A stretch of 64,000 nucleotides of DNA from Cytophagaceae bacterium (lineage in GTDB: Bacteria; Bacteroidota; Bacteroidia; Cytophagales; Flexibacteraceae). Numbering within the stretch: the first letter of the stretch is position 1; each line of letters starts with the position of its first letter. Where the stretch lies: positions 1-64,000 of the forward strand of contig JAIXYP010000045.1 in the NCBI GenBank assembly GCA_027490155.1, in the 5' to 3' direction. Shown here one piece after another: positions 1 through 17,563 of the stretch. The translations under genes were made by a program, and so were the position numbers. The notes beneath the pieces are model-generated. The model did not search any database. It was not told the origin of the DNA and worked only from the letters and a program-made list of their open reading frames with translations.

Positions 1-3000
1 ACTACAGCAGCCCTAGTCCAAGTGAATGTTGCTCCCGCGGTGGCAGAAGTTGGGCTATAGGTAAAGGCCGTGTTGCTACAAATAGCAGTTGGCGTTAGGG
101 TACTGCTTAGAGTTGGCCTTGGATTAACAACCACAGTAACACTTTGGGTATTGGAACAGCTGTTCGCTGTAGTCACGTAACTATAGACAACTGAAACTGG
201 AGCCGAAGTTGTGTTGATAAGTGTTTCGTTCGGGTTGCTGGTTTGCGCTACTGTTACAGCTGCATTGCTGATACCTGCGACTGCTGCACGGGTCCAGGTG
301 AATGTTGCTCCGGCAGTGCCAGAAGTTGGGCTATAGGTAAAGGCCGAGTTGCTACAGATTGTGGTTGGGGTGAGTGTTGAGCTGAGAGACGGCAATGGAT
401 TTACAACAACCACTATTGGGTCTGAAGTGGCACTGGTGCAACCATTTGAAACAGTACGTAACGTATAACTACCAGCACTATTCACAACAGTGCTTGCTGT
501 CGTTGCTCCGTTGGACCATAGATAATTATCCATGGTTTGAAGCTGAAAGACTTTTCGGATGAGGTTGTTTGCTGCATCTGCTACATACAAGTCACCAGTG
601 GCATCGATTGCCACGCCAGATGGAGGACTAATGGTAGCAGTTGACGTTGAGCCATTCGCATTACCATTAGATCCAGTGCCAGCTACCGTGGTCACAACTC
701 CAGTAGGGGTGATTTTACGAATGCGACGGTTGTTTGCGTCAGCTACAAAAACATTTCCACTGGCATCGACAGAGACGCTTTGAGGAGAATTGAACGAAGC
801 ACTTATACCAGTTCCATCAAGATAGCTTGCACTCCCCGAGCCTGCTAGTGTGGTCACAACTCCGGCAGAAGTAATTTTTCGGATGCGGTGGTTAGCCTGG
901 TCGGCCACATACACAGATCCACTAAGATCAACGGTTACGCCATAAGGATTCCTAAAAGAAGCACCCGTACCAGTTCCATCCAGATAATCGGCAATTCCAT
1001 TGCCCGCTAGCGTGGTTACAACACCAGCAGAAGTTACCTTACGGATGCGGTGATTACCAAGGTCAGCCACGTACACATTACCACTTGCGTCGACAGCTAC
1101 GCTTAGAGGAAAATTAAATCTTGCGCCTGTCCCTGTTCCATCAAGAAATCCGCTAGAAGAGCCTGCTAGTGTGGTAACCACGCCTGCAGGGGTGATTTTA
1201 CGAATAAGTTGACTAAAATAATCAGCCACATAAACATTGCCACTAGCATCGACTGCCACACCTGTAGGATTATTAAATGAGGCACCTGTTCCAGTGCCAT
1301 TGGTATTGCCAGGACTACCTGAGCCCGCTAGCGTGGTCACTACACCCGCTGAAGTAATTTTACGGATGCGGTGGTTGTTGCGGTCAGCCACGTACACATT
1401 TCCGTTTGCATCAATGGCTACACCGGTAGGCAAACTAAATGAAGCACTCGTTCCAGTACCATCCGTATATTGAGCAGCGCCCGAGCCGGCTAGCGTGCTG
1501 ATCATTGATGTGTATCCAAGCGTAACAGAGCTTCCAGAACATAAACTAGTGGAACTACCTGCGGTAATGACTGGCTTAATTGGCGAGGGGATGACTGTAA
1601 CAACCGTAGCTGCAGATGTAGTGCTTGTGCAACCACTGGCTATGGTATTAACTGTAAAACTACCCGAGGTAGAAACAATGATGCTTTGCGTGGTTGCTCC
1701 ATTTGACCACAAATAGGTAAAGCCAGCAGGGGCAGAAAGCGTAACCGAACCGCCAGAGCAGAATGTCGTGGAGCCACTTGCCGTAATAGTGGGAGTAGAA
1801 GGTGTAGTATTGGCAGTAACTACAGTTGGGTTTGATGTCGCACTACAACCATTAATTGTGGTTTGAAGTGTGTAACTGTCGGATGTAGAGACCGTGGTGC
1901 TTGATGTCGTAGCTCCGTTGGACCATAGATAAGAATCTATCGTTGGGGCTTGGGTAATTTTACGGATTCGATGGTTATTCTGGTCTGCCACATAAACATT
2001 ACCAGCAAGATCAACAGTTACTCCACTAGGAAAATTAAATGAAGAACTCGTAGCTGTACCATTGGTTGATCCTGTAGTCCCGATACCAGCAAGTGTCGTT
2101 ACCAAACCAGCTGGGGTAATTTTACGGATGCGGTGGTCAGAGTTGTCGGCTACGTACAGGTTGTCATTTGCATCCGTAGCCAAGCTAAATGGATTGCGGA
2201 ATGTTGCAGCTGTACCCGTACCATCTGCAGACCCATTGCTGCCAGATCCTGCAAATGTTGTTACGACACCAGCAGGGGTGATTTTACGAATGCGGCGGTT
2301 ATTCTGGTCTGCCACATAAATATTGCCACTGACATCCACTGCTACGCCTGAAGGAGCATTGAAGGAGGCAGCAGTGCCTGTGCCATCAGCATATCCAGCA
2401 GTACCTGAACCAGCCAAGGTGGTTACTATACCTCCAGATGTAATTTTACGAATGCGGTGGTTGAGTACATCTGCTACATACACATTGCCACTAACATCAA
2501 CTGCCAGACCTTGTGGAAAATTAAATCTAGCTGCTGTACCTGTTGCGTCAACATATCCAGAAATAGAACCTGCTAGTGTGGTAACCACGCCAGCAGGAGT
2601 AACTTTTCGGATTCGGTTGCTAATTTCGGATACATACAAATTTCCATTGGCATCTATGGCTATAGCTATTGGATTATCAAATGAAGCACCAGTGCCTGTG
2701 CCATTAACGGAAGCCTGGGTGCCAGATCCAGCTAGGGTTGTAACCACACCAGCTGGAGTAATTTTTCGGATGCGTTGGTTGAGATAATCAGCTACATATA
2801 CATTGCCATTGACATCAGTGGCTACACCATAAGGGTTTCTGAACGAAGCCCCCGAACCTGTACCATCAGCATAGGTATTAGTGCCCGAACCTGCGAGGGC
2901 GCTAGTTGTATTAATTGGAGGGGAATACGCTAGCGTGACTGAACCTCCCGAACAGAAGGTAGTAGGGCCGCTAGCTGTAACGCTTGGGGTTACAGGTGTT

Positions 3001-6000
3001 GGTTTAACGCTAACAACAACATTTTCGGTATTGGTGCAACCGTTGGAGGTTGTCGTGACAGCGTATGTAACGTTTACAGGGCTGCCCCATGTGTTGGTAA
3101 GTACCTCAGAAATGGAGGCGGAGGAACCTGAGCCAGCAACATTTGAGATATTAGCGACAGCAGCCCTTGTCCAGGAGAAGGTTGGGCTAGGGAAAGTGCT
3201 TGTGGCTGTGTAGGTGAATGTTGAGCCTGAGCAGATAGCAGCTGGGGCTAAGGATGAGCTTAGAACTGGAGTCGGCTTGATGCTAACAATGACGTTTTCA
3301 ATTTTGCTGCAACCGTTGATAGTTGTAGTAAACACATAGGTGACATTAATTGGGTTAGCCGTTGTGTTGGTGAGGACCTCTGAGATAGAGGCTGTGGCAC
3401 CTGATCCTGCTAGGTTAGAAATACCTATTACGGCAGCCCTAGACCAAGAAAAGGTTGAGCCAGCTATTGTACTTGTAGCTGTGTAGGTAAAGGTGCCTCC
3501 TGAGCATATAGCCGCTGGGGTTAAGGTTGAGCTTAGAGCAGGTGCTGGCTTGATGCTTACAACGACGTTTTCAGTCTTGCTACAACCATTTAACGTGGTT
3601 ATTACGAGGTATGTTACGTTTACTGGGCTAGCCGTTGTGTTGGTCAAGATCTCTGAAATTGAGGCAGTCGAGCCTGATCCGGCAAGGTTGGAGATGCCTA
3701 TAACAGCTGCTCTAGTCCATGAAAACGTTGAGCCAGCAAGGCTGCTTGTTATAGTATAGGAGAATGGACCTCCTGAGCAAATGGCAGCTGGCACAAGGGT
3801 TGAGCTAATAGCAGGTACTGGGTTAACAACAACCGTAACATTTTGGGTATTCGTACAGCCGTTAGCTGTCAGGGTATAGGCGTAGGTTACTGAAACAGGA
3901 GAAGTTGTCGTATTGGTGAGCGTTTCGTTCGGGTTTGAGGCTTGGGCCGTTGTGATCGCAGCATTGCTGATACCAGCAACTGCGGCACGGGTCCAAGTGA
4001 AGGTTGTACCAGCTACAGAAGAGGTTGGTACGTAGCTAAAAGCTGTACCATTACAAACTGCCGGCGGCGTTAGTGAACTACTGAGGGTGGGTTGTGGAAG
4101 GACTGTGGCCTGCACGCTAACCCCGTTATTGTTTTCATTATTATCATTGACGGAAGAGCTCCAGATCGCTCCATAAACGTCAACTGGACCTGTAGCTAAA
4201 TTCGTAGTTGCCGTGCCGTTAAGGACTAATGTTGCCGAAGCACCAGCACCCAGAGAAGGTATCGTCCAGATGCCACCAGCTTGGTTGTAGGTACCTGTAC
4301 TTGGTGTATTGCCTGTTAAGTTGATACCGATTGGCAAGCCAGCTTTGATATATATATTGCTGACCGCAATCGACGAAGGATTGATGATGGTATAGGTATA
4401 AGAGGCCGATCCTCCTTGGCAAATACTGGTTGACCCAGTTAGGCCAATTCCTAAGTTAACGTACTGACAAACCTCTGTGCCAAAAGTACTTGTGCGCTTG
4501 TTGCCTGCATCGGAGACTATTAAACGTCCATCGAGCAAGTAAGTGAGTCCTTGCGGATAGCTAAGTTGGGATGTTCCTGATCCAGTGGCATTGGTCGTAA
4601 AAGTGGACTGACCGATTACTAAGTCGGCATTGATCCCGTTAGTGCTTGGAATTGAGTTATAGACAATGACACGGGAATTGTTATAATCAGAGAAGGCGAG
4701 TGCACCGCTGCTTGAAACTGCAACGCAATTAGGTACTGTACAGCCAGATTGGGTTACTCCGGCTGTATTGGTGGTGAAGTTACCTTGCCCAATGACAACA
4801 GCTGCTGATGCACCATTTGTTGTAGGGATGGAATTATAGATTAGTAAACGGTTATTGTTACCATCTGTCACAATGAGTTTACCGTCCCTGCTCAGTGCCG
4901 CATCAAGCGGGAAGTTCATGGTAGCGGCTGTGGTTGAGGCTGTACCTGTGGTAAAATCTGGCTGCCCGATGACCAGATCAGCTGCGGCTCCGTTTGTGAT
5001 AGGAAGTCGGTTATAGATTAGTACCCTGCTATTGGCTCTATCTACAATAAACAATTGGCCATTGGGGCTAACAAAAGCACGGCGAGGTCCGTTTAACTTC
5101 GTTTGTGAGGTTCCGGCTGTTACAGTCAAAAAATCTGGCTGCCCAATGACAACATCTGGAGCTTGGCTGCCTGTGGTCGGGAGCGTGTTGTAAATGACTA
5201 CACGGTTGTTTGTTCCTTCGACCAAAATAAACTTATTGCCATCTGGGGTAAATGCAACACCATGCACTGTGACCCCTCTGCTTAGGGTGAGGTAAGGTGT
5301 TGTCGAATTGGCAGAACTGTAAAAATCCACATTGCCTGCATCGGAACTTATTACTTTTATGCCTTTAGAGCTTATCGTTATACCTCTGACAAAATCAGGT
5401 GAGGTTATGGTAGACGCATATGCCATGCCAGTAGAAATGGCAGGCGCTGTTGGTGTGGTGCTAAGGGTAACAACAATTGGCGTGCTAGCGGACGATGTAC
5501 AGTTTGTGACCGTGTTCCGAATGCGAAGTGAGTAGGTACCCGCTGCGCCGACAGTTAAGCTGCTAGCAGAGCTGTTATCCGACCAAAGGAAAGCCTCGTT
5601 GGTTCCGAGTGCATAGCTGGTGGAAAGGGATATGGTGTTACCGAAACAGACCGTTGTGGGTCCTGTGATGGATGGTGCGGCCAAATTGCCTACAGTAGTT
5701 GTGACCGAGGCAGTGTTATTGCTGTAGTCAGGATCGTTTATTGTGGCACTGGCAAGAGCTGCATAAAAGAGAATGCTGGATGGGGCAGTAGCGTTGGTAG
5801 TCGCATTAATTGTTAACGTAGCAGAGGCACCAGCGGCAAGGTTGGTGATTGTCCATGTGCTTCCTGCGCTGTTGTAAGTGCCTGTGCTTGGGGTGCTAGA
5901 CACAAAGGTGGCATAACGAGAAAGCCCAGCCGATACATAAATATTAGGTATACTAATGGTACCTGGGTTGGTAACCGTTACCGTATAGGATAGGTTGCCG

Positions 6001-9000
6001 TTTTGGCAGCTAGCTGCTGTGCCAGTTGCTGTAAGTGATAGGTTGGCTAATTGGCAAATTTCTTCACCATAAAAGTTCAATCGGCCATTAGTGTAATCTG
6101 AAACAACAAGGCGACCATCGAAGGTAAAATCAACAGATTGGGCAAGGTTAAGGCCGCTAGCTGTATTACTTGAATTTCCGTTAAAGGTTGTTGTTTGGCC
6201 AATTGTTCGTGGAAATGAGATGGAATTGGTTACTGGCACATCATTAAGAATGGCTGCGCGATGATTATTATTATCGGCGATTGCCACTAGGCCAGATGGA
6301 GAAGTGGCAACTTTGGTAGGACTTCTTAACTTAGATGCACTAGTACCAGCTGTTCCGTCAGTAAATGTGGTATTACCAATGACTATTGAGGCAGTTGGCC
6401 CATTACTTGTTGGCAATGTATTGTAAACCAAAACACGGTTGTTGCCGAAGTCAGCGATCAATAATTTACCATTTGGGGACTCGCAAACACTATATGGCGC
6501 ATTGAGACCTGTAGCAGTGGTGGCAGCGGTGGCAGTTGTGAACCCTGTTTGCCCAATAACGATATCTGCTGCGACTCCATTGGTGGTCGGGATCGCCTCC
6601 CAAACCATAACCCGGTTATTATTTGCATCAGCCACATAGACTCTTCCCTGCGGGCTGACATAAACACCCCTAGGGAATGTAAGCGTCGATTGAGTAGTAC
6701 CTGCTGTGGTAAAATCACCGGTTTGGCCTATATAAACATCCGGTACTTGAGAGCCTGTGGTGGGGATGGAATTGTAAACAACAACACGGTTATTGGTACC
6801 CTCGGCTAGCAAAAGTTTGTCGCCATCTGGGCTAAAGGCTATGCCTCTAACCTCCGAAGGTCTAGTTATGGTAAGATACGGGGTCGTGGCTAACGGAGAA
6901 TTATAAAGCAGTACTGCATTTGACCCTGTGGTGGCAATTGCCATTACTCCTTTGTTACTAATAGCTGATACCCTTGGTAAGGTTGCCGGTACAGATATCG
7001 AAAAAGCAGATCCTGTAATGAAACCAGGTGGCGAAACTGTATTATCAAGCGTGACCACGAACGGGGCGCTAAAAGCGGAAGTACAAGCAACAGCATTATT
7101 AACGACTCTAAGACCATAGGATCTAGCTTCGGTTACAACCCGTGTAGTCTCTGTACTACCATCGCCCCATATAAAGGTCTCGTTGGGACCAAGCGTATAT
7201 GAAGAGCTAAGCGTGACCGTGTTACCAGAACAAATAATGTTTGAACCGGTGATAGTAGGGGTAGGAACGTTGGTAACGGTAGAGGTAACAAAAGCAGCAT
7301 TGTTGGATTGATCTGGGTCGTCAACACCTGCGTAAATGATGTTGGCCTGGACATCATACGAACCAAAATAGTTGGCGCCAACACTTGCTACAAACGTAAG
7401 CGTGGCAGATGCACCAGCCGCCAAACTTGGGATGGACCAAACACCACCAGCTGTATTGTAGGTACCCGTACTCGGTGTGCTGCTAGTGAGTGTCAAGCCA
7501 ATATATGGAATAGCTGCGCCTATCCGCATGTTAGTAACAGCAGCAGTGCCAGGGTTGGTAACGGTTACGATATATGTCGCGGAACCTCTTTGGCAGGCAA
7601 TACTTGGGCCTGAAACAGAAACCGACAAGTTGGTTAAGGGGCAAACCCCTGCACCAAAAATGGTTGATTCTGAACTATTATACTCACCGACTACCAAACG
7701 GCCATCCATGTTCCAAGCCACGGAAATAGGTTGGCTGAGTGTTGAGTTTGGGTTCGTGGTGAAATTGGCCTGCCCCAAGACCACGTCCGCAGCTGGGTTG
7801 GATACAGTTGGAGTGGTGTTATAGATTAGTACACGGTTGTTAGAGAGGTCAGCAACAGCCAGACCATTAACTGGGTGAGCTGCGACAAAATACGGTAGGT
7901 TGAATTTGCTTGCAGAAAGCCCAGAGGCTTGAGTAGTAAAATTACTTTGGCCGATGACCAAATCTGCGGATACGCCATTGGTTGTAGGTATTGAATTGAA
8001 AATCAATACTCTATTCGAGCCGAGCTCGCTAATCATTAATTTACCATCGCTGGTAATTGAAACCCCATCAGGGCTCGAAAATCTATTTGCTTGAACGGCA
8101 GATGTAAATGAAGTAAAATCGGGCTGACCGACGACTACGTCAGCTGCGACACCATTTGTGGTAGGGATTGAATTAAAAATCAACACCCTGTTAGCGTTTC
8201 CCTCAGCAACAATCAGTCGACCGTCTTGCGAAACAATGGCGCGTCTTGGTGACGACATTTTACTAGCTGATACTGTGGATGTTGCAGTTCCCATAGTCAC
8301 AGTAGTTGCGTCTGGTTGTCCAACATAGACATCTGGCGCTTGGGAGGCAGATGTTGGTAAGGAATTGTAAATGACAACCCTGTTATTGGACGATTCTACC
8401 AAAATTAGTTTGTTGCCATCTGGCGAGAAGGCTACACCTCGCACAATAGTTCCCCGACTCAATGTGAAGTAGGGAGTTGTTTGGTCGATATTTCTGTAGA
8501 AAAAAACGTTGCCATTGGCTGCGCAAATTGCATAGATGCCCTTAGAGCTAATGGCAGATTGCCAGATATTGGTACCAGCTTGAGACAGGGCCGAGGCAGA
8601 GGCCATGTTGTTGGTGAAACTTGGTGTGCCGTTGGTTGGGCGGACGGTAACAACCACGTTTTCTGTGTTGGAACATCCTTTGGCAACAGTCGTTACCGCA
8701 TAAGTGACGTTGATGGGGGAAGATGTGCTATTTGTAAGTGTTTCTATAATAGCACCCGTACCGCTTCCTGTTGATGGGCTAATATTGGTAACGCCTGCCC
8801 GTGTCCAACTAAAGGTGGGGTCTGGGTTGGCCGAAGTTGGGGTATATGTAAACGAAGCGCCCGAACAAGTCTTATGCGTCAGCGGGCTAGAAAGGGTTGG
8901 TAATGTCAGTGTAAAGGACTGCTCGGCAGACCAAGCTCCGCCCTTAATACCAGCATCAATAGCCTGGACGGCAAAGTAGTAAGTGGTCCCTGTTGTTAGA

Positions 9001-11387
9001 CCAATAATGGGGAGGCCACCTGTCCTCCATTTGATAGGTCCAGTTTTGCCTAAACGGCGATAGCCAGATGTTGTATTGGCCATGGAACCCCAAATCTGGC
9101 TACCACCGGGGGTGGTACCGATTCGTAGATTATAGGACAACCCATTTTGGGCTGTCTCGGTATCGGTTGCCTTTGCCCAGTTGAGGTTTGTGGTGGTACA
9201 ACTGGTTTGGGTAGATGTAAGGCTAGTTGGTGCGGCAGCAGCGGCATTGCCGATGGTCGTATTATTGGTCAGTATGCCAAAATAGGCAGCTATCGAGTTG
9301 GTTACGCCACTAAATGCAAGGTCAAGGTCACCATCGGCATCAAAGTCTCCCCAAGCCAAATCTGCATAGGAAATGCCAAGGCTAGGTACCGTATAGAAAA
9401 GGGAGAATGCATCGCCACCGTTGTTTTTCCAGATTTCGAAGCGTCTACTATTGTTGGCTCGGTTGGTGCCAGAGAGTGCTACATCGAGGTCGCCATCGTT
9501 ATCAAAATCACCCCAAGTCGCTTCCCCGAATTCTGCTGCTGGGAAGGCGACATTAATGTTAGTGAAGGTGGAGTTGCCATTGTTTTTGTGGATTTGGATT
9601 GTTCCCTCGCCGGCTCCAGCCCCTGAAATCAAGATATCCAGATTGCCATCACCATCATAGTCGCCCCATTCAGCACCACCTCTGTAGATATTGACAATAC
9701 TTTGGGATAGGCTTGTAAAAGTGGCTCCACCGTCGTTACGCCAGATGCGCGTTATTTGATTAAATGAAGGGTTAAGACCAGTCTGAAGTATGTCAAGGTC
9801 TCCATCGTTATCAAAGTCGCCCCAGTCTAGCGAGGCTTGATTGGCGCCGGTGATGGATACCGGGACTAAGGTAAAATTACCTCCGCCATCATTCCGTCGT
9901 AGTTCAGTAATCCTGGTGGAAGAAGCTGTTAAGCCCGAATAGAGGCAATCTTGGTCACCGTCATTGTCATAATCGCCCCAAGCAACAGCACCATAGCTGA
10001 CTCCTGTAAAGTTTGTTTTGATCGAAAAGCTACCACTACCATTGTTTTCGAGTAGCCTGTTTACGTATTGGGATACGTTATACCCTGTAAAGTGTAGGTC
10101 TAGATCGCCGTCTTTGTCATAGTCAACCCAATTGACAGTTCCGACCGAAACTCCTAAGGACCCCGTGACTGTTACAGGAGTCCAGGTATCAACAGCCCCA
10201 GAGTTCCTCAAAAGTCTGAAGGTCACGTTGAACGAGGGATCTTCACCGACAGCCACAGGATCCAGATCACCATCATTGTCAAAATCACCCCAGGCTACGT
10301 CTCCATAACTGATTCCGTAGCTGGTACTTGTTGCAATAAATGCTGGACGGACTGTGACAGTAACAAGGCGTGCCGACTTAACCCCGGTTGTAGGATTGCG
10401 TGCCGTAACGTAATATACAACATCAACGTTGGACGTAGTGGTGTTGATAAGTGTTTCCGTAAACGAAGTGGAAACTGGTGTTGCACTGGTGACAGCAGCA
10501 TTTGAAATACCACTAACTGCTGCCCTTGACCATGTGAAAGTTGCTCCTGATGTGGCAGATGTTGGCGTGTAGGTAAATGGCTCTCCCGAGGTGGCCGTCG
10601 CAGTGGCTGGGCTAGTAACACCGGGAGCTATTGGACTGAAAGCAATTTCAAAGTTATCTAGCCCAACAACCTGAGATGTGGCGGCAGATGTTGCACCCGT
10701 GCAGACAATCTTGATATAAATGAAACCTCCAACGGCAATGTTTGGTGTGAAATAGGCAAGTCTTTGGACAGCAGGAGCTGGGTCGAATAATGTTGTACTA
10801 TTGGCATCTGCTGCAAAACTATAATCAGCGGCTGTGAGTGCATTGGGCTGCGAGTTGGCAGCTGTACCCCAAAAAACTGTCCAATTAGACGGGTCGGTTC
10901 CTGAACGAAACTTCTTTAAGTCAAAGACAATACAAGCCGAAGAGGCAACAGAACCTGTTGAATTAGCAAAGCCACCAACGAAGGAACTAGTGCCTACTCC
11001 AACTGTGCCAATTGCCCTGTCGGTTGCTGATGCAGTAACTCCAGAAGCCAAGTTATAGATCCCCGTCGAAGATGAGCCCGTCAAAGCCCCAGTACCGCTA
11101 GTACCAGCAGCAAAGACCACTGGTGTGGAGGTGCTTAGCCATGTTGGAGTTGCGGTGGCGTAGTAACGCCAGGGGTTAGGAATGTTGGCACTCGCTGAAC
11201 TGCCTAGCGCATTGAAATTAGAGGTAGCGACGAGATTGCTGCTAGTAATTCCCAGCAATTGACCAAAACTAGCTTGGGCAATCAGGAATGTGGTAAGTAA
11301 TACTACCCATTGGAAACTTGCTTTGAGGCAGGCAATTGCTACACTATTGGACTTAAAAAAAGGAATCCGTTGGGTATAGTTACTCAT
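1..11387 (-). CDS. Giant secreted multi-propeller repeat protein, 3' end beyond window
   Basis: A single frame stays open from ATG 11387 to the left edge (3795 codons); I checked frame at nine places spread over its length and all agree. The N-terminus has a hydrophobic segment at about residues 15-42. In order there follow a PKD-like module (about 262-345), seven FG-GAP-like units of about 50 residues with WGDFDNDGDLD cores (348-710), an FN3-like module (720-828), and three rounds of six-bladed propeller plus DUF11/CARDB-like plus Ig-like domain (about 923-2426). Then come four tandem PKD-like modules of about 90 residues (2431-2796) and two blocks of six NHL repeats (2828-3146 and 3296-3615) separated by Ig-like modules. 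The FG-GAP cores resemble calcium-binding loops. Such proteins in this phylum are usually T9SS-exported surface proteins or adhesins; the sorting domain would lie outside the window, so export route and function are inference. Confidence 0.9.
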   Translation of the reverse strand, partial: MSNYTQRIPFFKSNSVAIACLKASFQWVVLLTTFLIAQASFGQLLGITSSNLVATSNFNALGSSASANIPNPWRYYATATPTWLSTSTPVVFAAGTSGTGALTGSSSTGIYNLASGVTASATDRAIGTVGVGTSSFVGGFANSTGSVASSACIVFDLKKFRSGTDPSNWTVFWGTAANSQPNALTAADYSFAADANSTTLFDPAPAVQRLAYFTPNIAVGGFIYIKIVCTGATSAATSQVVGLDNFEIAFSPIAPGVTSPATATATSGEPFTYTPTSATSGATFTWSRAAVSGISNAAVTSATPVSTSFTETLINTTTSNVDVVYYVTARNPTTGVKSARLVTVTVRPAFIATSTSYGISYGDVAWGDFDNDGDLDPVAVGEDPSFNVTFRLLRNSGAVDTWTPVTVTGSLGVSVGTVNWVDYDKDGDLDLHFTGYNVSQYVNRLLENNGSGSFSIKTNFTGVSYGAVAWGDYDNDGDQDCLYSGLTASSTRITELRRNDGGGNFTLVPVSITGANQASLDWGDFDNDGDLDILQTGLNPSFNQITRIWRNDGGATFTSLSQSIVNIYRGGAEWGDYDGDGNLDILISGAGAGEGTIQIHKNNGNSTFTNINVAFPAAEFGEATWGDFDNDGDLDVALSGTNRANNSRRFEIWKNNGGDAFSLFYTVPSLGISYADLAWGDFDADGDLDLAFSGVTNSIAAYFGILTNNTTIGNAAAAAPTSLTSTQTSCTTTNLNWAKATDTETAQNGLSYNLRIGTTPGGSQIWGSMANTTSGYRRLGKTGPIKWRTGGLPIIGLTTGTTYYFAVQAIDAGIKGGAWSAEQSFTLTLPTLSSPLTHKTCSGASFTYTPTSANPDPTFSWTRAGVTNISPSTGSGTGAIIETLTNSTSSPINVTYAVTTVAKGCSNTENVVVTVRPTNGTPSFTNNMASASALSQAGTNIWQSAISSKGIYAICAANGNVFFYRNIDQTTPYFTLSRGTIVRGVAFSPDGNKLILVESSNNRVVIYNSLPTSASQAPDVYVGQPDATTVTMGTATSTVSASKMSSPRRAIVSQDGRLIVAEGNANRVLIFNSIPTTNGVAADVVVGQPDFTSFTSAVQANRFSSPDGVSITSDGKLMISELGSNRVLIFNSIPTTNGVSADLVIGQSNFTTQASGLSASKFNLPYFVAAHPVNGLAVADLSNNRVLIYNTTPTVSNPAADVVLGQANFTTNPNSTLSQPISVAWNMDGRLVVGEYNSSESTIFGAGVCPLTNLSVSVSGPSIACQRGSATYIVTVTNPGTAAVTNMRIGAAIPYIGLTLTSSTPSTGTYNTAGGVWSIPSLAAGASATLTFVASVGANYFGSYDVQANIIYAGVDDPDQSNNAAFVTSTVTNVPTPTITGSNIICSGNTVTLSSSYTLGPNETFIWGDGSTETTRVVTEARSYGLRVVNNAVACTSAFSAPFVVTLDNTVSPPGFITGSAFSISVPATLPRVSAISNKGVMAIATTGSNAVLLYNSPLATTPYLTITRPSEVRGIAFSPDGDKLLLAEGTNNRVVVYNSIPTTGSQVPDVYIGQTGDFTTAGTTQSTLTFPRGVYVSPQGRVYVADANNNRVMVWEAIPTTNGVAADIVIGQTGFTTATAATTATGLNAPYSVCESPNGKLLIADFGNNRVLVYNTLPTSNGPTASIVIGNTTFTDGTAGTSASKLRSPTKVATSPSGLVAIADNNNHRAAILNDVPVTNSISFPRTIGQTTTFNGNSSNTASGLNLAQSVDFTFDGRLVVSDYTNGRLNFYGEEICQLANLSLTATGTAASCQNGNLSYTVTVTNPGTISIPNIYVSAGLSRYATFVSSTPSTGTYNSAGSTWTITNLAAGASATLTINATTNATAPSSILFYAALASATINDPDYSNNTASVTTTVGNLAAPSITGPTTVCFGNTISLSTSYALGTNEAFLWSDNSSASSLTVGAAGTYSLRIRNTVTNCTSSASTPIVVTLSTTPTAPAISTGMAYASTITSPDFVRGITISSKGIKVISSDAGNVDFYSSANSTTPYLTLSRGVTVHGVAFTPDGNKFILVEGTNNRVVIYNTLPTTGSQAPDVVIGQPDFLTVTAGTSQTKLNGPRRAFVSPNGQLFIVDRANSRVLIYNRLPITNGAAADLVIGQPDFTTGTASTTAATMNFPLDAALSRDGKLIVTDGNNNRLLIYNSIPTTNGASAAVVIGQGNFTTNTAGVTQSGCTVPNCVAVSSSGALAFSDYNNSRVIVYNSIPSTNGINADLVIGQSTFTTNATGSGTSQLSYPQGLTYLLDGRLIVSDAGNKRTSTFGTEVCQYVNLGIGLTGSTSICQGGSASYTYTIINPSSIAVSNIYIKAGLPIGINLTGNTPSTGTYNQAGGIWTIPSLGAGASATLVLNGTATTNLATGPVDVYGAIWSSSVNDNNENNNGVSVQATVLPQPTLSSSLTPPAVCNGTAFSYVPTSSVAGTTFTWTRAAVAGISNAAITTAQASNPNETLTNTTTSPVSVTYAYTLTANGCTNTQNVTVVVNPVPAISSTLVPAAICSGGPFSYTITSSLAGSTFSWTRAAVIGISNLAGSGSTASISEILTNTTASPVNVTYLVITTLNGCSKTENVVVSIKPAPALSSTLTPAAICSGGTFTYTATSTIAGSTFSWSRAAVIGISNLAGSGATASISEVLTNTTANPINVTYVFTTTINGCSKIENVIVSIKPTPVLSSSLAPAAICSGSTFTYTATSTFPSPTFSWTRAAVANISNVAGSGSSASISEVLTNTWGSPVNVTYAVTTTSNGCTNTENVVVSVKPTPVTPSVTASGPTTFCSGGSVTLAYSPPINTTSALAGSGTNTYADGTGSGASFRNPYGVATDVNGNVYVADYLNQRIRKITPAGVVTTLAGSGTQASVNGTGTGASFDNPIAIAIDANGNLYVSEISNRIRKVTPAGVVTTLAGSISGYVDATGTAARFNFPQGLAVDVSGNVYVADVLNHRIRKITSGGIVTTLAGSGTAGYADGTGTAASFNAPSGVAVDVSGNIYVADQNNRRIRKITPAGVVTTFAGSGSNGSADGTGTAATFRNPFSLATDANDNLYVADNSDHRIRKITPAGLVTTLAGIGTTGSTNGTATSSSFNFPSGVTVDLAGNVYVADQNNHRIRKITQAPTIDSYLWSNGATTSSTTVSTSDSYTLQTTINGCSATSNPTVVTANTTPSTPTITASGSTTFCSGGSVTLSAPAGFTYLWSNGATTQSIIVSTSGSFTVNTIASGCTSTTSAATVVTVIPSPIKPVITAGSSTSLCSGSSVTLGYTSMISTLAGSGAAQYTDGTGTSASFSLPTGVAIDANGNVYVADRNNHRIRKITSAGVVTTLAGSGSPGNTNGTGTGASFNNPTGVAVDASGNVYVADYFSQLIRKITPAGVVTTLAGSSSGFLDGTGTGARFNFPLSVAVDASGNVYVADLGNHRIRKVTSAGVVTTLAGNGIADYLDGTGTGASFRNPYGVTVDLSGSVYVADQANHRIRKITSAGVVTTLAGSGSASYLDGTGISASFNSPQSVSVDASGNVFVADANNRRIRKITPTGVVTTVAGTGSNGNANGSTSTATISPPSGVAIDATGDLYVADAANNLIRKVFQLQTMDNYLWSNGATTASTVVNSAGSYTLRTVSNGCTSATSDPIVVVVNPLPSLSSTLTPTTICSNSAFTYSPTSGTAGATFTWTRAAVAGISNAAVTVAQTSNPNETLINTTSAPVSVVYSYVTTANSCSNTQSVTVVVNPRPTLSSTLTPTAICSNTAFTYSPTSATAGATFTWTRAAV

Positions 11388-11413
11388 AAGGAACTGATGT
11401 ATTCGATGTGGGG

Positions 11414-11421
11414 CAAACCTA
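11414..11421 (-). promoter_or_regulatory. Bacteroidota -7 box for the giant gene
   Basis: The minus strand reads TAGGTTTG, an exact match to TAnnTTTG, 27 nt before the ATG at 11387. This would give a leader of about 20 nt. No TTG is found at the expected -33 spacing, which would fit a promoter that relies on an activator. Confidence 0.5.
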
Positions 11422-11452
11422 GCCCAAATCACAAGTAATCAGCCTATGATAC

Positions 11453-11584
11453 ATATCACGAAATTCTCATGATCGTCATGTGATATACAAAACAGCATCA
11501 GGAGAGCAATACTGGATTAACATCTTAATTATTAGGAAGTTATGAGGTATCATATCACTGTATATCATATCTGACATATGATAT
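11453..11584. promoter_or_regulatory. Cluster of ATATCAY / RTGATAT motifs (candidate operator)
   Basis: Five copies of a 7-nt motif in alternating orientation occur at 11453-11459, 11480-11486, 11552-11558, 11562-11568 and 11578-11584, and a sixth lies at 11702-11708. The first two form an inverted repeat (ATATCAC, 20 nt, GTGATAT) centred about 60 nt upstream of the predicted start of transcription of the giant gene, a usual activator position. The last two form ATCATAT, 5 nt, ATATGAT. The binding protein is unknown. Confidence 0.35.
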
Positions 11585-12155
11585 TGAGGGGTATCTAGTC
11601 ATAGTGAAACAGTCTAAAGCACGCTAGGACCTCGAACTTTTGCCTTAGTCCATGGGGTACCATTTGAGGCCAATGCTGTCTATTGGTTCAGGCTTTAGTG
11701 TGTGATATGTGGCAAAAAAAAATGAGCTCATGCAGCCTCCAAATCAGGTGCTTTCTCGTTGTATTTGGCGTTCAAAACCAAGGTTCTGCTAAGCTCTAAT
11801 GGCGCTCGATCAGGTTGCCATTACGATCATTAAGCCTGAAGTGTCTAAAGACAAAGATGGGGTAGGTCTGTAGGTTTTGCCTCCTTAAACGACTTTTGTG
11901 GTAAACGATTTTATATCTAAAGTAATTGGCTTTGACCTTGTATAGCCTTTCGGCCTGTATTGTTCTTGAAGATTGAAGGTTGTTTCGTAGTGAGTGGGGG
12001 CTGGGAGAGTGCCTAGTGAAAAGGCGAACTCAAGTTTGAGAGGCAACACCAAGTGATTTTATTAGCCTCCATCACTGAAAAACAACTCCGTGATCTGCCC
12101 TGCAATCTGGATTACAATGGCCAGCTCTAACGTATACTACTTAATCTTGCATTAA
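11585..12155. other. Gene-free stretch between giant gene and recombinase remnant
   Basis: No convincing coding frame, RNA gene or terminator is seen. The minus strand is open for about 20-30 codons at around 11740-11810, but there is no recognisable similarity. Given the neighbouring recombinase fragment, this may be decayed mobile-element DNA; that is inference. Confidence 0.4.
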
Positions 12156-12548
12156 AGAGGCAACCTCGCTGCCCTTAAGAAGAAGCTGGAAGCCCTAGAA
12201 GAGCGCTACGTCATCGGTGATTTGGAGAAAGACCTCTACCTCCGATACAGCTCAAGATACAAGGATGAAATCAAAGAACTAGAGCAGGAAATCAACGGAA
12301 TGGTCGTCAACTTATCGAACCTCGATCAGTTGTTAGACAAAACCCTCTCAATAGCCTCAGAAATGCAGTTTTTATGGCAAAAAGTGGACTTCCGCACCCG
12401 CCAAATCCTCCAGAAAACCATCTTCCCCACAGGTATTACCTATGACAAGATTTTAGGCCATTATCGAACCCCAAAGGTCAATGTTATTTTTGAGCTAAGT
12501 CGCTCATTATCAGGATTTATTGTAAATAAAAAAAGCGGAACGCTTTCT
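12156..12548 (+). pseudogene. Remnant of a serine site-specific recombinase (C-terminal part)
   Basis: The frame is open from just after a stop at 12153. It reads like the coiled-coil and C-terminal region of large serine recombinases: KKKLEALEERYVIGDLEKD, then a helical stretch, then FLWQKVDFRTRQILQKTIFP, GITYDKILGHYRTPKVN. The catalytic resolvase domain and zinc ribbon are absent upstream, no proper start codon is present, and the frame runs on into the tmRNA terminator. It is therefore a 5'-truncated, dead fragment. It lies tail to tail with the tmRNA gene, a common integration neighbourhood, and suggests an element once sat here. Confidence 0.65.
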
Positions 12549-12571
12549 TCTGGTGAAGTGCGTTCCGCTTT
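12524..12571 (-). terminator. ssrA: Terminator of tmRNA
   Basis: A perfect 12-bp stem (12532-12543 with 12560-12571, AAAGCGGAACGC) with a 16-nt loop starts at the last A of the tmRNA CCA end. On the minus strand it is followed by a run of T residues. Confidence 0.85.
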
Positions 12572-12938
12572 GGTGGAGTCGGAGGGACTCGAACCCTCGT
12601 CCGAACCTGGATATGTGCGCGCTTTCTACATGCTTAGTCGTATTTGATTGTCGGCTTCTTGCTGGCTACAACCACCAAAACAAGTCACGTATCTGCTTTG
12701 GGTTTCGGACAGACCCCGCAGCAGGTCAATCCTAGTCTCGATTTGCGACACCCCGTGACCCAATCCAACAAGACATAGGATCGGCAGGATGATGGCACTA
12801 GCTAATCCTCCGGATTAGGCGGCCATGGCGTATGAAGATTCGCCAGTTGGGTTTTGGAAGATTTTTTGAAAGGAGACTCGACCAACTCCCTGCATGCTTA
12901 CACACCATCTCAGCAAGCCGTCAAAACCGGTCGACCCC
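12571..12938 (-). ncRNA. ssrA: tmRNA (SsrA)
   Basis: The 3' end shows the tRNA-like half: a T-arm with GGGTTCGAGTCCC, the acceptor strand CGACTCC and an encoded ACCA at 12571-12574. The 5' end starts GGGGTCG, which pairs with that acceptor strand, and is followed by GGTTTTGACGG as in other tmRNAs, giving 368 nt. The tag reading frame at 12844-12815 encodes GESSYAMAA followed by TAA. The product rescues ribosomes stalled on broken mRNAs and marks the released peptides for proteolysis. The final MAA is a slight change from the more usual LAA. Confidence 0.95.
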
Positions 12939-12994
12939 AAGTGATGGTAATTACATTGGACAAGAGCGCGTCTGCTTGCTTGTCCTTAGTGATA

Positions 12995-13002
12995 CAAAGA
13001 TA
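12995..13002 (-). promoter_or_regulatory. -7 box upstream of tmRNA
   Basis: The minus strand reads TATCTTTG, an exact TAnnTTTG match, 57 nt before the mature 5' end, so a short 5' precursor would be trimmed. No -33 TTG is apparent. Confidence 0.5.
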
Positions 13003-13040
13003 CGGACTTGTTGGGCTTAGTCGCTTATATATTATGGCCG

Positions 13041-13066
13041 ATTGCCGAACCTCTGATTTCGGCAAT
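13041..13066. terminator. Hairpin between MarR gene and tmRNA
   Basis: A perfect 9-bp stem (ATTGCCGAA with TTCGGCAAT) and 8-nt loop lie 27 nt after the MarR stop codon. There is no T-run on either side, so it may be a weak terminator or a protein-binding dyad upstream of the tmRNA promoter. Confidence 0.35.
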
Positions 13067-13092
13067 TCAAGCAACAAACCAATCAGGCTGAT

Positions 13093-13602
13093 TTAGTCTC
13101 CCTCGCCTTGCGCGGCAGCAATCAGGAGCCTGAGGTATTTCAGGAGTTTGTCTTCCTTTTTGCCGACAACCTCGAAGAACTGGGCGTCAGCTTCTGCTAC
13201 CACACTATTGGCTGCTTCAATGATGTCATGCCCCTCAGGCATAAGCCAAATGATGATGGCACGGGCATCCTGATCAGAAGCCTTTCGGGCCAACAGATGG
13301 CGGTCAGCAAGGGCCCGAATGACTTTGCTGGTCATCATCTTGTCAATGCCTAGGTGTGTCGCGATCTGGTTTTGGTTAACTGCTGTCTCGTCAGCTGTTG
13401 CGCCCATCTCTGCAAGGCCCGCCAATAAAAGGTACTGGACGTGGGTCAGATCCAAAGGGTCAAGTGTAACACGTATCATTCGCTGCCACCTGTTGGCTGC
13501 CTGCCAAAGCTGGAACCCGATCAGCTCAGAGGGGCTACCTTGTGCTGGTTTTGTTTTGCTGTTGCGGTCCTTCCCTATTTTGATCGGCTTGATCGGTTTC
13601 AT
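13093..13602 (-). CDS. MarR-family transcriptional regulator
   Basis: The 169-residue protein has the MarR layout: an N-terminal helix (FQLWQAANRWQRMIR), then a winged helix-turn-helix (LDLTHVQYLLLAGLAEM, NQNQIATHLGIDKMMTSKVI, RALADRHLLARKAS with the wing DQDARAIIIWL), and C-terminal dimerisation helices. The ATG at 13602 was chosen; an in-frame GTG at 13632 would add ten residues. It follows the BatA gene on the same strand after about 70 nt, so it may be co-transcribed. Such proteins are usually repressors released by small phenolic ligands or oxidation; target and ligand here cannot be told from sequence. Confidence 0.85.
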   Translation of the reverse strand: MKPIKPIKIGKDRNSKTKPAQGSPSELIGFQLWQAANRWQRMIRVTLDPLDLTHVQYLLLAGLAEMGATADETAVNQNQIATHLGIDKMMTSKVIRALADRHLLARKASDQDARAIIIWLMPEGHDIIEAANSVVAEADAQFFEVVGKKEDKLLKYLRLLIAAAQGEGD

Positions 13603-13671
13603 CGGTTGGTGTAGTTTATCCCGGATGCGCACGCAGCTGTTTTTGCTACCAAATAGCTTTGGAGCCCATAG

Positions 13672-14724
13672 TTAGTCTTCAAGGGCATTGCTCATGAAGG
13701 TGCTCTTGGTCAGGAGCCAAATTAGCATAAAAACGATGGCCCAAAGTAAATAGACTTGGTAAAAGTCGGCGACGAATTTGAAGCGATTCTCTTTGATCTC
13801 TGCTTTTTCGAGGGCGTTGATTTGTCGGAAGGTTTTCTCAAGATCACGCTCGTTACCAGCTCTGAAATACCGGCCCGTGCCGACTTCGGCTAGCTGACGG
13901 AGGGTACTTTCGTCCATGGTGTTCTCGACATATTGTTGGTTGCCAAAGGCATCTTGGCCCATCGGGACACGGCCATCACGCCCGACACCAATGGTGTAGA
14001 TCTTTATGCCGAAGGCTTTTGCGAGCTGGGCGGCGGTCTGGGGGTCGATGTTACCACCACTATTGGCCCCATCACTGATCAGGACGACTACTTTGCTTTT
14101 GGCTTTGCTTTCGCGCATGCGGTTGGTGGCGACACCAAGGGCCGTGCCAATTGCAGTATTTGGCGTCTGGATCATGTTAAAGTCAATGGACTTGAGGTAG
14201 TCAAAGACCATCTGGTAGTCCGTTGTGAGGGGGCAGAGCGAATAAGCTTCCCCTGCGAAGACGACAAGGCCAATACGGTCTTGGGTTCGCCCTTCAACAA
14301 AGGTCTTGGCAACTGCTTTGGCCGCCTCTAGCCGGTTAGGGGTGAAATCCTGAATCCGCATAGACTCTGAGATGTCTAGGACAATGCAGATGTCGATGCC
14401 CTCTGCGCTTTGCTCTGCAACTTCGTTGGTCTTTTGGGGACGAGCTAGGGCGATTATTAATAGGGTGATTACGACCCCTAGTAGCGCATCAGGTACAAAC
14501 CGCAAGTAGGCACTGATATTTGTCTGGAGTTTGACGCCAACAGTAGCCACTGCTATCCGCTGCCGATGCCTGTAGTACAGGCCCCATCGCGCCATAAAGA
14601 GCAAGGGAACTGTCAGGATAAAATACAGCAAAAATGGTCTGGCAAAAATAAAGTCAGACAAGGTGGAGGGTAGGAACCACGTCGGCGAAAGCCACTCTCT
14701 TATATCAAAAAGGTCTTTTCCCAT
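13672..14724 (-). CDS. batA: BatA-like von Willebrand factor A domain membrane protein
   Basis: The 350-residue protein has N-terminal membrane segments (about 31-48 and 77-95), a periplasmic VWA domain (about 108-300) and a C-terminal membrane segment (about 322-340). The metal-binding MIDAS motif is complete: DISES with D117, S119 and S121, plus TPNTAIGT and ISDGANSGG further on. This matches BatA of the Bacteroides aerotolerance (Bat) cluster. Its start overlaps the stop of the preceding gene (TAATG), so the two are translationally coupled. The usual MoxR ATPase, DUF58 protein, BatB and TPR protein are not adjacent, so this is a reduced or split Bat locus. Confidence 0.85.
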   Translation of the reverse strand: MGKDLFDIREWLSPTWFLPSTLSDFIFARPFLLYFILTVPLLFMARWGLYYRHRQRIAVATVGVKLQTNISAYLRFVPDALLGVVITLLIIALARPQKTNEVAEQSAEGIDICIVLDISESMRIQDFTPNRLEAAKAVAKTFVEGRTQDRIGLVVFAGEAYSLCPLTTDYQMVFDYLKSIDFNMIQTPNTAIGTALGVATNRMRESKAKSKVVVLISDGANSGGNIDPQTAAQLAKAFGIKIYTIGVGRDGRVPMGQDAFGNQQYVENTMDESTLRQLAEVGTGRYFRAGNERDLEKTFRQINALEKAEIKENRFKFVADFYQVYLLWAIVFMLIWLLTKSTFMSNALED

Positions 14725-15722
14725 TAGCGGCTGCCCTCCTTGATTTTTGCCTTACGGCGGTCATAAAAGTCAACCGAATACCGCCGTAGGACGGTAAAGA
14801 TGCGTTCTGAAATTTCGTCCTTCATACCCCCATAGACGGCCCTATCTATGCTCTGGAGAGCTTGAGATAAGTTCTCGTCAGGGAACAAAGTTGTGATCTC
14901 CTTGGTGGTATAGGTGCTGAAAGGTTGGTTGTCGACCCGCTCCATATATTGTTTCCAGAGATTGAGGGCCTGTTCCATGGTGTCGGTGCTGCGATTCTTA
15001 AGGGACTGTGATGCAAGCCTGTCGAACAAAGTCGTGAATATGGCATGTCGCCGATAGAGGACCAAGAGGCCAAACCCCTTCTGGATCGGGCGGCCCAAGA
15101 AGGCATTGACCAAAAACAGCAATACCGTCATGACACCGATGCCTAGGCCCCAATAGTTATAGTTGATCCAGAGGGGTAGGATTTCGGCTTGGGTATTGAC
15201 TTTTAGTGTCGGCTTGGTGGGCATCTCAGGTAGCAACCGATGGAGGTAAAGCGTATCGAGGTTGCTTTCGTAAACAACAGTATCCCCATTAGTATAGTCC
15301 GTTATGGATAGACGTAGGCGTTGCTCTGGGGACATGTTGAAGGTCTGGAGCGTATAGACCACACTATCAAAGGAGCCATTTTCGTCTGTGCGGGTGGCGT
15401 AGTAGGTTTTGTTCAGGAACTCGAATGGCGCATAATCGGCCAATGAGTCTGGGAAAATAAGGTCAAGATCTGGGTCATGCCGGACAGAAAGACTTAGGTA
15501 GATGGGTTCTCCGATCTTGGCATGGCGGTCTCTGAAGTGCAGAAAGGGCCTGCTGACCCTGACTCCACCTTGTTGGTTGTTGTTTTGGGCCGTTTTAGCC
15601 TTGTCGAGCTGGTCCTTAGACATACTCAGTGGGGTATCGGCAACAGATAGATGCCCAGTCAAGAGACAAAATGCCCCAATGCTGATCCTGAGAAAACCTG
15701 TTAGCAACGTATACAACCGCAT
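14724..15722 (-). CDS. BatD/DUF4381-like membrane protein of the Bat locus
   Basis: The ATG at 15722 gives 332 residues beginning with a clear signal peptide (MRLYTLLTGFLRISIGAFCL). An in-frame ATG at 15800 would put 26 polar residues ahead of it and is less likely. A beta-rich periplasmic part is followed by one membrane span (LGIGVMTVLLFLVNAFLG) and a cytoplasmic helical tail with LNLWKQYMERV...TTLFPDENLSQALQSIDRAVYGG, which resembles the tail of DUF4381/BatD-like proteins. Its position directly before BatA with a TAATG overlap supports a role as BatA partner. Family assignment rests on layout and context rather than on diagnostic residues. Confidence 0.65.
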   Translation of the reverse strand: MRLYTLLTGFLRISIGAFCLLTGHLSVADTPLSMSKDQLDKAKTAQNNNQQGGVRVSRPFLHFRDRHAKIGEPIYLSLSVRHDPDLDLIFPDSLADYAPFEFLNKTYYATRTDENGSFDSVVYTLQTFNMSPEQRLRLSITDYTNGDTVVYESNLDTLYLHRLLPEMPTKPTLKVNTQAEILPLWINYNYWGLGIGVMTVLLFLVNAFLGRPIQKGFGLLVLYRRHAIFTTLFDRLASQSLKNRSTDTMEQALNLWKQYMERVDNQPFSTYTTKEITTLFPDENLSQALQSIDRAVYGGMKDEISERIFTVLRRYSVDFYDRRKAKIKEGSR

Positions 15723-15800
15723 ATTTCTGTGGCGGAATTGGCCTAAGGGCAATCCTCCCAAGAATTGGTTTGGTCGATATGAAAAGGGCATAGGTATCAT

Positions 15801-16110
15801 CCTGATGGTAAAAATAGGCTTTTGAGACTAGTCTTGCATCATCCTGCCAAATTTGATGCTATGCTTTGGCGCAGGACATGACGATATTACCATATGCTGA
15901 CAAGATTTGTTAGCTTTCGGGCAGGCTAAGCTGGGTTATGATGATGCTAAACGGCTGGCTTCTAACGATCGGAATCCACCAGTACCTGACCTGTACTCTA
16001 TGGCTAACAATTTCGCTAAGTCCTTCTGAACCAGTGCATATGACCTATCCGAGCAATCAAGCCTTAAACCAGCCTTAAATCTCAACCTTCAATCTAGAAA
16101 TTACTCCACC
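15801..16110. other. Divergent intergenic region
   Basis: The region lies between the Bat-like pair (minus) and the Fe-S protein (plus). No exact TAnnTTTG box, RNA gene or long repeat was seen. Confidence 0.4.
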
Positions 16111-16341
16111 ATGCAAGAGACCCACAAATACACAAACGAAGACGGCACGATCGTCTGGAAACCAAAACAATGCGAACATACGGGCATTTGCTTCCGTGGT
16201 TTGCAATCCGTCTTTGACCCTCGGCGGAGGCCCTGGATTGTTGCTGATGGTGCCACGACAGCCGAGATTACCAAACAGATTGCGGCCTGCCCATCAGGTG
16301 CCATTTCTTGGCATCCGAAAGAGCAAGTTACCGCTGAATAG
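16111..16341 (+). CDS. Divergent 4Fe-4S mono-cluster protein (Fer4_19 family)
   Basis: This 76-residue protein has the pattern of the YjdI-like Fer4_19 family: WKPKQCEHTGICFRGL, then a spacer with VFDPRRRPWI, then IAACPSGAISW. The cysteines at about 21, 27 and 60 and the CPSGA motif are the expected cluster ligands. Family members often sit beside or are fused to a GNAT acetyltransferase; none is adjacent here. The electron partner and role are not known. It stands alone, followed by a strong hairpin. Confidence 0.85.
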   Translation: MQETHKYTNEDGTIVWKPKQCEHTGICFRGLQSVFDPRRRPWIVADGATTAEITKQIAACPSGAISWHPKEQVTAE

Positions 16342-16374
16342 GGTAAAGGAGCTTTGTTCCAATACCCCAGAAAC

Positions 16375-16410
16375 AACAATGCCTACCAGAGCAATCTGGT
16401 AGGCATTGTT
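16375..16410. terminator. Bidirectional terminator between Fe-S gene and rplI
   Basis: A perfect 16-bp stem (16375-16390 with 16395-16410) with a GCAA loop, between two converging genes. The flanking T-runs are short. Confidence 0.75.
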
Positions 16411-16446
16411 TGGGAATCTACTTTTGGGCTATTCAGCCTGTCGGAC

Positions 16447-16890
16447 TTAGTCAGCTACAACGCTGAAGGCAACAGTGTGCTGGACTGCTTTGTGTAGGTT
16501 GAGTGTAGCAGAGTAGTTTCCTAGCTCTTTAACATCACCTACCAAACCAATACGCTTGCGGTCCACCTCGAAACCAAGAGCCTTGAGGGCATCGCTGATC
16601 TGGAGGGTGGTGACAGCACCAAAGATTTTGCCGTTTTCGCCGGCTTTTGCTTTGATGACCAATACGGTCTCGCCGATGTTGTCAGCAAGTAATTGGGCGT
16701 CTAGTTTTAGTTTTTCGGCTTTGTGGGCAGCTTGACGCTGATTTTCGGCAACTACTTTCTTCGCACTTGGGGTGGCCAAAAGGGCCATACCTTGTGGGAT
16801 GAGGTAGTTACGACCATAGCCAGGGCGGACAGTTACGAGGTCATTTTTGTAACCCAGCCCTTTTACGTCTTCTTTCAGGATGATTTCCAT
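16447..16890 (-). CDS. rplI: 50S ribosomal protein L9
   Basis: The 147-residue protein has both L9 domains: the N-terminal rRNA-binding part with MEIILKEDVKGLGYKNDLV and VRPGYGRNYLIPQGMA, a long connecting helix rich in Lys, Ala and Glu, and the C-terminal domain with GKIFGAVTTLQISDAL. Length is normal for the family. It is the last gene of rpsF-rpsR-rplI and binds the L1-stalk side of 23S rRNA in the large subunit. Confidence 0.97.
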   Translation of the reverse strand: MEIILKEDVKGLGYKNDLVTVRPGYGRNYLIPQGMALLATPSAKKVVAENQRQAAHKAEKLKLDAQLLADNIGETVLVIKAKAGENGKIFGAVTTLQISDALKALGFEVDRKRIGLVGDVKELGNYSATLNLHKAVQHTVAFSVVAD

Positions 16891-16943
16891 CGTCTGTTTG
16901 TTGTGTTAGGATTGTGTGGAACACAGCGTAGGCCTGGGTTGGC

Positions 16944-17195
16944 TTACTTCATACCATCGGCTAGGTACGGCATCAAGGCGATATGGCGTGCGCGTTTTAC
17001 CGCTTGGGCCACCTTCTTCTGGAACTTGAGGCTGGTACCGGTGAGACGACGTGGCAAAAGTTTGCCTTGGTCGTTGACAAATTTAAGCAAGAAACCAGCG
17101 TCTTTGTAATCAATGTACTTGATTCCGCTTTTCTTGAACCTACAGTACTTCTTGCGTACTTCGGTTTTGTGCATTGGTTCGTTTACGAGTGACAT
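16944..17195 (-). CDS. rpsR: 30S ribosomal protein S18
   Basis: The 83-residue protein shows the S18 core KKYCRFKKSGIKYIDYKD and LLPRRLTGTSLKFQKKVAQA. The start at 17195 overlaps the rpsF stop (TAATG) and is preferred; a second ATG lies at 17174. S18 binds S6 on the platform of the small subunit, which explains its coupling to rpsF. Confidence 0.97.
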   Translation of the reverse strand: MSLVNEPMHKTEVRKKYCRFKKSGIKYIDYKDAGFLLKFVNDQGKLLPRRLTGTSLKFQKKVAQAVKRARHIALMPYLADGMK

Positions 17196-17563
17196 TAGGC
17201 AGCAACCTCGGCGGTTTCGGTTTTCTTGTTGAACTTACCAGAACGACGTTTCTCGTTGTAAGCAACTGCGTGCTTGTCAAGAGAAGTTGTCAAGAAGCGC
17301 ATAACACGCTCATCACGACGGAATTCAGTTTCCAGAACGTTGATGACAGGTGCTGCAGCGTTAAACTCAACGAATACGTAGTATCCTGTTGACTTGTGCT
17401 TAATTTCGTAGGCGAGCTTGCGCAGGCCCCATTCTTCCGTGTTCAGTACCTCCGCCTTTTGGTCGGCGAGTAACTGCAGGAACTTTGCGACGGCATCCTT
17501 TGTCTGTTGTTCAGACAAAATGGGAGTAAGGATGAATACCGTCTCGTAGTTGTTCAATGCCAT
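17195..17563 (-). CDS. rpsF: 30S ribosomal protein S6
   Basis: The 122-residue protein has the S6 signature [17 protein letters not shown] at the N-terminus, ending in a basic tail. The ATG at 17563 is the family's normal start; longer in-frame readings upstream reach into the promoter. It heads the rpsF-rpsR-rplI operon and lies about 40 nt after a strong Bacteroidota promoter. Confidence 0.97.

Follow-up and report, generated by a model that had tools for sequence, protein, structure and literature searches.

The window, i.e., the whole stretch of 64,000 nucleotides analyzed here, begins with a gene that runs off the end of its contig (window base 1 is base 1 of contig C36 of its own genome, G000). 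The locus raises two questions: what kind of protein combines so many propellers with Ig-like units, and how did such a gene come to lie next to a tmRNA gene?

Reading frame, domain composition and C-terminus

On the minus strand, positions 3 to 11432 form a stop-free frame that is cut by the contig edge and counts 3810 codons when opened at a GTG and 3795 when opened at the ATG at 11387 (Table 1), which confirms the single frame of at least 3795 codons given in a preliminary description of this DNA. The congener G001, the sole other genome of the genus searched, contains a collinear frame of 3807 amino acids up to the edge of its contig, with 87.3% identity over 3795 aligned residues, so that the window frame is not an artefact of a single assembly; MutL is 96.3% identical between the two genomes. 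The N-terminal region that follows the putative signal peptide had no relative in viral contigs. Pfam analysis of the window frame recognized NHL (PF01436, E-value 3.7e-119, 14 stretches), DUF11 (three stretches), PKD_5 (seven stretches) and FG-GAP_3 (six stretches), and E-values that low exclude chance for the domain calls.

Table 1. Features of the giant gene and of the adjacent junction (window coordinates).
Feature	Position	Strand	Basis or remark
Giant gene: first 3795 codons; contig edge removes the 3' end	3..11387	-	
Putative signal peptide, residues 1-43	11259..11387	-	judged by eye from translation
N-terminal region (residues 45-262), unmatched in Pfam	10602..11255	-	C6 has a paralog, G007 a weaker match
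FG-GAP block, seven units, about residues 363-740	9168..10301	-	Pfam and motif count
Module M1: NHL-related propeller, DUF11, Ig-like unit	7017..8615	-	
Module M2: NHL-related propeller, DUF11, Ig-like unit	5436..7016	-	
Module M3: NHL-related propeller, DUF11	4098..5435	-	
PKD_5 array, four units; part is an imperfect 273-base tandem repeat	2991..4097	-	
Nested block N1: six-bladed NHL propeller between N-half and C-half of an Ig-like unit	1797..2990	-	
Intact Ig-like unit, same family, between N1 and N2	1578..1796	-	
Nested block N2, arranged like N1	393..1577	-	
Second PKD_5 array, start only, edge-cut; most likely continues on C18 (L029)	3..392	-	
tmRNA gene, with the element's left junction at its 3' CCA	12571..12938	-	Rfam RF00023, 118.3 bits
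Inverted repeat and T run right after tmRNA, common to other junctions of the element type	12528..12570	-	alignment
Remnant of large serine recombinase C-terminus	12162..12569	+	about 135 codons, pointing at tmRNA

Most elements of the preliminary description were retained, some of them in corrected form. The many PKD and Ig-like modules were recovered by Pfam (PKD_5) and by profile (Ig-like units), and the seven FG-GAP-like units correspond to six D.D.DGD motifs found by regular expression and a degenerate seventh found on reading; to judge from these motifs, the block probably forms one seven-bladed propeller additional to the five already named. As regards these five, described as six-bladed, each contains six repeats or units; the first NHL block is six-bladed in a structural model, and for the three M blocks six blades are suggested by their sequence units. 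The three propellers assigned to another type are present as parts of composite modules, in which a propeller is joined to DUF11 and, in two of the three, to an Ig-like unit. The two kinds do occupy separate blocks as had been stated, but they are not unrelated: the M propellers, with six units each on reading, score as NHL too (the first with an E-value of 3.5e-13), which makes both kinds branches of one superfamily. Repeated duplication, also proposed earlier, is supported by the module identities with the qualification that it is old. The M modules are 45-50% identical among themselves and 85-87% identical to their positional orthologs in G001, and N1 and N2 are 63-65% identical mutually versus 89-91% to theirs; since modules are closer to positional orthologs than to each other, duplication predates the species split, and by this sequence comparison the M and N blocks are not recently homogenised.

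Several contig edges of G000 interrupt related giant genes, and the C-terminus of the present one is most likely carried by contig C18, which ends with an 876-aa frame open at its 5' side and containing PKD_5 (four stretches) and Por_Secre_tail. Among the contig edges compared, the C18 units were closest to the last units of the gene, with array DNA identity of 79.6% over 363 bases. Pairing of C36 with C17 (66%) or with C30 (70% over 157 bases) was rejected; C30 joins C6 via a 119-base overlap. Moreover, the last 422 aa of C18 are 91% identical to contig C282 of G001 and at most 66% identical to every other copy. In G001, the gene start on C30 comes after mutL and tRNA-Arg, and C282 runs into tRNA-Leu and pdhB. 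Because mutL, tRNA-Arg, tRNA-Leu and pdhB are contiguous on C41 of G000, with no giant gene between them, C30 and C282 of G001 represent the two ends of one insert, and orthology with these two contigs places C36 and C18 together. The assignment is thus supported by orthology and synteny; C36 and C18 have no end sequence in common and are not physically joined. The protein would comprise at least about 4670 residues (3795 and 876, plus the gap between the contigs). The test for a T9SS C-terminal domain proposed in the preliminary description gave the sorting domain PF18962 on the C18 fragment (39.8 bits, cut-off 27), which is the tail of this gene only if the assignment of C36 to C18 holds. 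Giant genes of this kind are cut at contig ends of draft assemblies, whereby T9SS tails are missing from annotation.

In the same genome, contig C12 (L031, 1-4223) is open in one frame over its whole length, and its two ends share 119 bases. An exact tandem repeat with a period of about 4.1 kb has thus been collapsed here, and the true length of another giant gene (perhaps C67-C44) may far exceed the assembled one.

NHL propellers nested in Ig-like units

N1 and N2 both open with the initial third of an Ig-like unit, continue with a block of six NHL repeats and close with the remainder of the unit. An HMM of 72 positions, built from 90 intact Ig-like units and run on 1009 distinct frames of 259 loci, splits around each insert near position 21/22, which was seen at 15 places in six genes of G000. 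Twenty of the 22 split rows were accepted: 15 from the own genome (window, two; C26, six; C40, three in two genes; C10 and C19, two each), two from G001, one from L124 and two from L195; the rows of L175 and L231, with 5-9 bits and without a propeller, were discarded. Throughout the accepted cases, the first half stops at positions 20-30 of the profile, the second runs from positions 19-26 to 69-72, and the inserts between the halves measure 288-343 aa. L124 is a 755-aa protein of a MAG labelled Cytophagaceae bacterium H1_MAG_00022 and has one nested NHL case, and L195, of a MAG labelled Ferruginibacter sp., carries Kelch propellers at the same Ig site in two copies.

NHL blocks with at least four motifs were nested in 12/12 cases within the fetched own-genome stretches, which is not a genome-wide rate since these stretches were picked partly by similarity to the giant gene, and in 3/70 cases elsewhere. 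A junction probe of 98 residues was searched against 395 genomes of the class: both of its parts were spanned in all 12 scored own-genome rows, and the other matches listed covered the blade or the Ig part alone, save three weak rows (G284, G437 and G535). Fetched stretches led to rejection of G284 and G535, where a T9SS tail or the end of the protein, and no Ig half, comes after the propeller; inspection of the G437 row flagged nothing. With a Kelch query against 345 genomes of the class, the matches listed covered the propeller only and none covered both Ig halves, and the evidence for nested Kelch propellers therefore comes from a single locus, where there are two copies.

The block-wise structure prediction suggested in the preliminary description was run for N1. 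A first model, based on nine alignment rows, gave a confident ring, with the Ig halves and the intact unit mostly below a pLDDT of 50. The second AlphaFold2 model, based on 56 rows of which 38 were intact units placed across the insert by MAFFT, showed a nested fold (mean pLDDT 96.9, pTM 0.92, Ig halves 87-96) with a six-bladed ring; strong as it is, this model is not independent proof, given that the alignment itself favours nesting. The ring matches solved NHL propellers, and six-bladed closure of the NHL repeats is thereby confirmed by Pfam, model and structure comparison. None of the PDB matches listed covered the ring together with the two Ig halves in nested order. Taken together, profile and model strongly indicate that the two NHL propellers are inserted in a loop between two strands of an Ig-like unit, which would close round the insert. 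A propeller nested in an Ig-like repeat was not found described in the literature covered, which included few subscription papers.

Two further loci were noted. L037 on C26 of G000 (2431-17862) is a complete frame of 5144 aa in which NHL blocks are nested in Ig-like units six times and which ends in a T9SS tail, and at L109 (G103:C14, 1446-6500, minus strand) NHL blocks seemingly lie, by eye, in another Ig loop (after WLKDGTTVSSSPYS), twice.

A junction at the tmRNA gene

One class of integrative elements with large serine recombinases inserts at the 3' ends of tRNA genes. The giant gene begins 1.2 kb past the 3' end of the tmRNA gene, a gene that ARAGORN missed on the same window and Rfam found. 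The inverted repeat after the tmRNA was not reported by a consensus scan because its loop exceeds what the scan permits. At the window site, the C-terminal remnant was found in place of Resolvase and Recombinase domains; by itself it had no Pfam match at the curated cut-off and no match in plasmids, and a genome search detected relatives in 6/79 genomes. Intact relatives occur elsewhere, namely in G058 and G028; they contain Resolvase and Recombinase domains, and their frames end inside a tRNA.

In the alignment, the left ends of five junctions are alike from the CCA on. The left end seen at the tmRNA recurs in G001 behind tRNA-Arg (ahead of the ortholog), tRNA-Glu and tRNA-Ser, and on C5 behind tRNA-Glu. 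Another, short form of the left end follows tRNA-Met on C67 and tRNA-Ser on C40. On C18, the insert has the right end CTCCAACTCCACCA as compared to CTCCGACTCCACCA at the tmRNA end. As putative direct repeats, the two ends agree in 13 of 14 bases at tmRNA/C18 and in just CTACCA at tRNA-Arg/C282; the right ends of C17, C126 and C30 lack the clear shared end of C18, C282 and C44. An occupied tRNA end with an empty counterpart in a relative was found at tRNA-Arg, occupied in G001 and empty on C41 of G000, and the tmRNA site had no match in G001 and was thus not seen empty. Four related giant gene starts (C36, C5, C67 and C6) had been selected independently of the remnant; three of them come after a tRNA or tmRNA that is accompanied by sequence of this kind, and a start at the end of C40, located via the remnant, is the fourth behind a tRNA. 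No tRNA was found upstream in the stretches scanned for the giant genes on C6, C26, C19, C10, C40 (two), C31, C64 and C28. On L057 (G001:C126), after position 1859 and past the stop of the C17-type gene, a left-end-like CTACCA with an inverted repeat was observed, possibly reflecting tandem insertions.

The position behind tmRNA here versus tRNA-Arg in the sister species, the recombinase remnant and the matching junctions make the gene look like cargo of an integrative element, and judged by these sequences it has apparently been mobile, its sites in the two species being different tRNA-type genes. The differing neighbourhoods of the orthologs might also stem from old duplicates with differential loss, or from rearrangement, with no movement of an element. 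We regard this as rather unlikely: it would fit a genus with only two genomes available, a recombinase broken at the sites seen and a tmRNA site not seen empty, but the breakpoints fall at CCA ends of tRNA and tmRNA genes, left end and recombinase remnant are shared at tmRNA, tRNA-Glu, tRNA-Arg and tRNA-Ser, and the tRNA-Arg site is empty in G000. That the frame is an assembly chimera or contains collapsed repeats, as contig ends within repeats in both species and the self-overlapping C12 might suggest, is highly improbable in view of the collinear, 87.3% identical frame in the independent assembly of G001. For the cargo reading, we propose a past site-specific integration at the CCA end of tRNA or tmRNA genes, with the giant gene as main cargo and the recombinase now broken. 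As in known elements with large serine recombinases, the junction lies at a tRNA CCA end and the recombinase frame of the intact relatives overlaps the tRNA; unlike in these, the recombinase is broken, the sole recognised cargo is one giant gene, and tmRNA also serves as a site. An element of this type was not found described, again with few subscription papers covered. The locus offers a test case for gain or exchange of giant adhesins, with two species, an occupied and an empty site and exact junctions.

Predicted function and comparison with known systems

We consider it probable that the gene encodes a T9SS-exported fibrillar surface adhesin with nested propellers as candidate binding domains, being cargo or remnant cargo of a tRNA/tmRNA serine-recombinase element. 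Stalk repeats typical of such adhesins are present as PKD_5 and DUF11 (Pfam) and Ig-like units (profile). The long surface adhesin or binding rod envisaged in the preliminary description gains from the T9SS sorting domain on the assigned C-terminus, adhesion itself being predicted; the combination, called unusual there, is so only in part, as Por_Secre_tail scored 150 matches in G000, a good number of them in frames longer than 2000 aa. From these matches we infer that the T9SS machinery is present in the genome. The C-terminal tail, along with the signal-like N-terminus judged by eye, suggests that the protein would be exported via Sec and then T9SS and attached to the surface, where the Ig, PKD and DUF11 units may form a rod from which the nested propellers would stick out sideways as candidate binding heads for glycans or proteins. 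Since entry and exit of a nested propeller lie side by side, the rod would be unbroken, and such nesting shows concretely how a surface rod could bear large binding domains and still run on uninterrupted. Only tentatively, and with somewhat more doubt than confidence, do we propose in combination that one loop of the Ig-like surface repeat common in Bacteroidota is a general propeller socket (for NHL in the genus and one family member, for Kelch in the Ferruginibacter MAG), with the Ig fold closed around 288-343 residues in each case, and that giant genes of the genus containing such rods move as near single-gene cargo of serine-recombinase elements directed at tRNA and tmRNA genes.

Three other views of the protein have to be weighed. 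If the Ig halves were not one domain, the propeller would be merely flanked by two degenerate partial units, which agrees with the low confidence of the first model at the halves; it is nevertheless quite improbable, the halves being complementary in 20/20 accepted cases with inserts of 288-343 aa, the second model reaching a pTM of 0.92 and an intact copy adjoining. A secreted enzyme or enzyme scaffold with lactonase- or lyase-like propellers, rather than an adhesin, is suggested by weaker SGL and Vgb_lyase matches in Pfam and appears unlikely, because these are generic propeller cross-matches far exceeded by NHL and no separate catalytic domain is among the Pfam matches of the window frame and the C18 fragment. 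Hardly any probability is given to a teneurin-like protein or polymorphic toxin: TEN_NHL matched with an E-value of 6.4e-64 and the first Foldseek match was the teneurin-like protein 9ifo, but the Pfam matches of window frame and C18 fragment include neither a YD/RHS shell nor a toxin domain, and the assigned C-terminus is a T9SS tail.

The adhesin reading can be compared with known systems. SprB-type giant surface proteins of the T9SS are of a comparable size class and use the same secretion route; the likeness to the giant gene concerns these two traits. With the bacterial teneurin-like protein (PDB 9ifo) and teneurins, the propeller shares the six-bladed NHL fold (Z 41.3, 348 aligned, rmsd 2.9). 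The NHL propeller of the teneurin fold comes after an FN-plug domain (PMC13018210), whereas here it lies within an Ig-like unit and no YD-shell was found. Bacteroidetes fibrillar adhesin-like proteins with Por_Secre_tail are described as long and multidomain with stalk domains (PMC8286594); the giant gene resembles them in stalk domains and T9SS tail, and differs in having propellers as its candidate binding domains, of which two are inserted into stalk units. The main text of that source uses none of the terms propeller, NHL, nested and FG-GAP. A Bacteroidota fibrillar adhesin with a T9SS tail is therefore a known kind, and nesting and mobility are the new parts. Additionally, a genome search pointed to two small proteins with T9SS tails elsewhere in the window (50317-51153, minus strand, and 61512-62975, plus strand), the second of which has DUF11.
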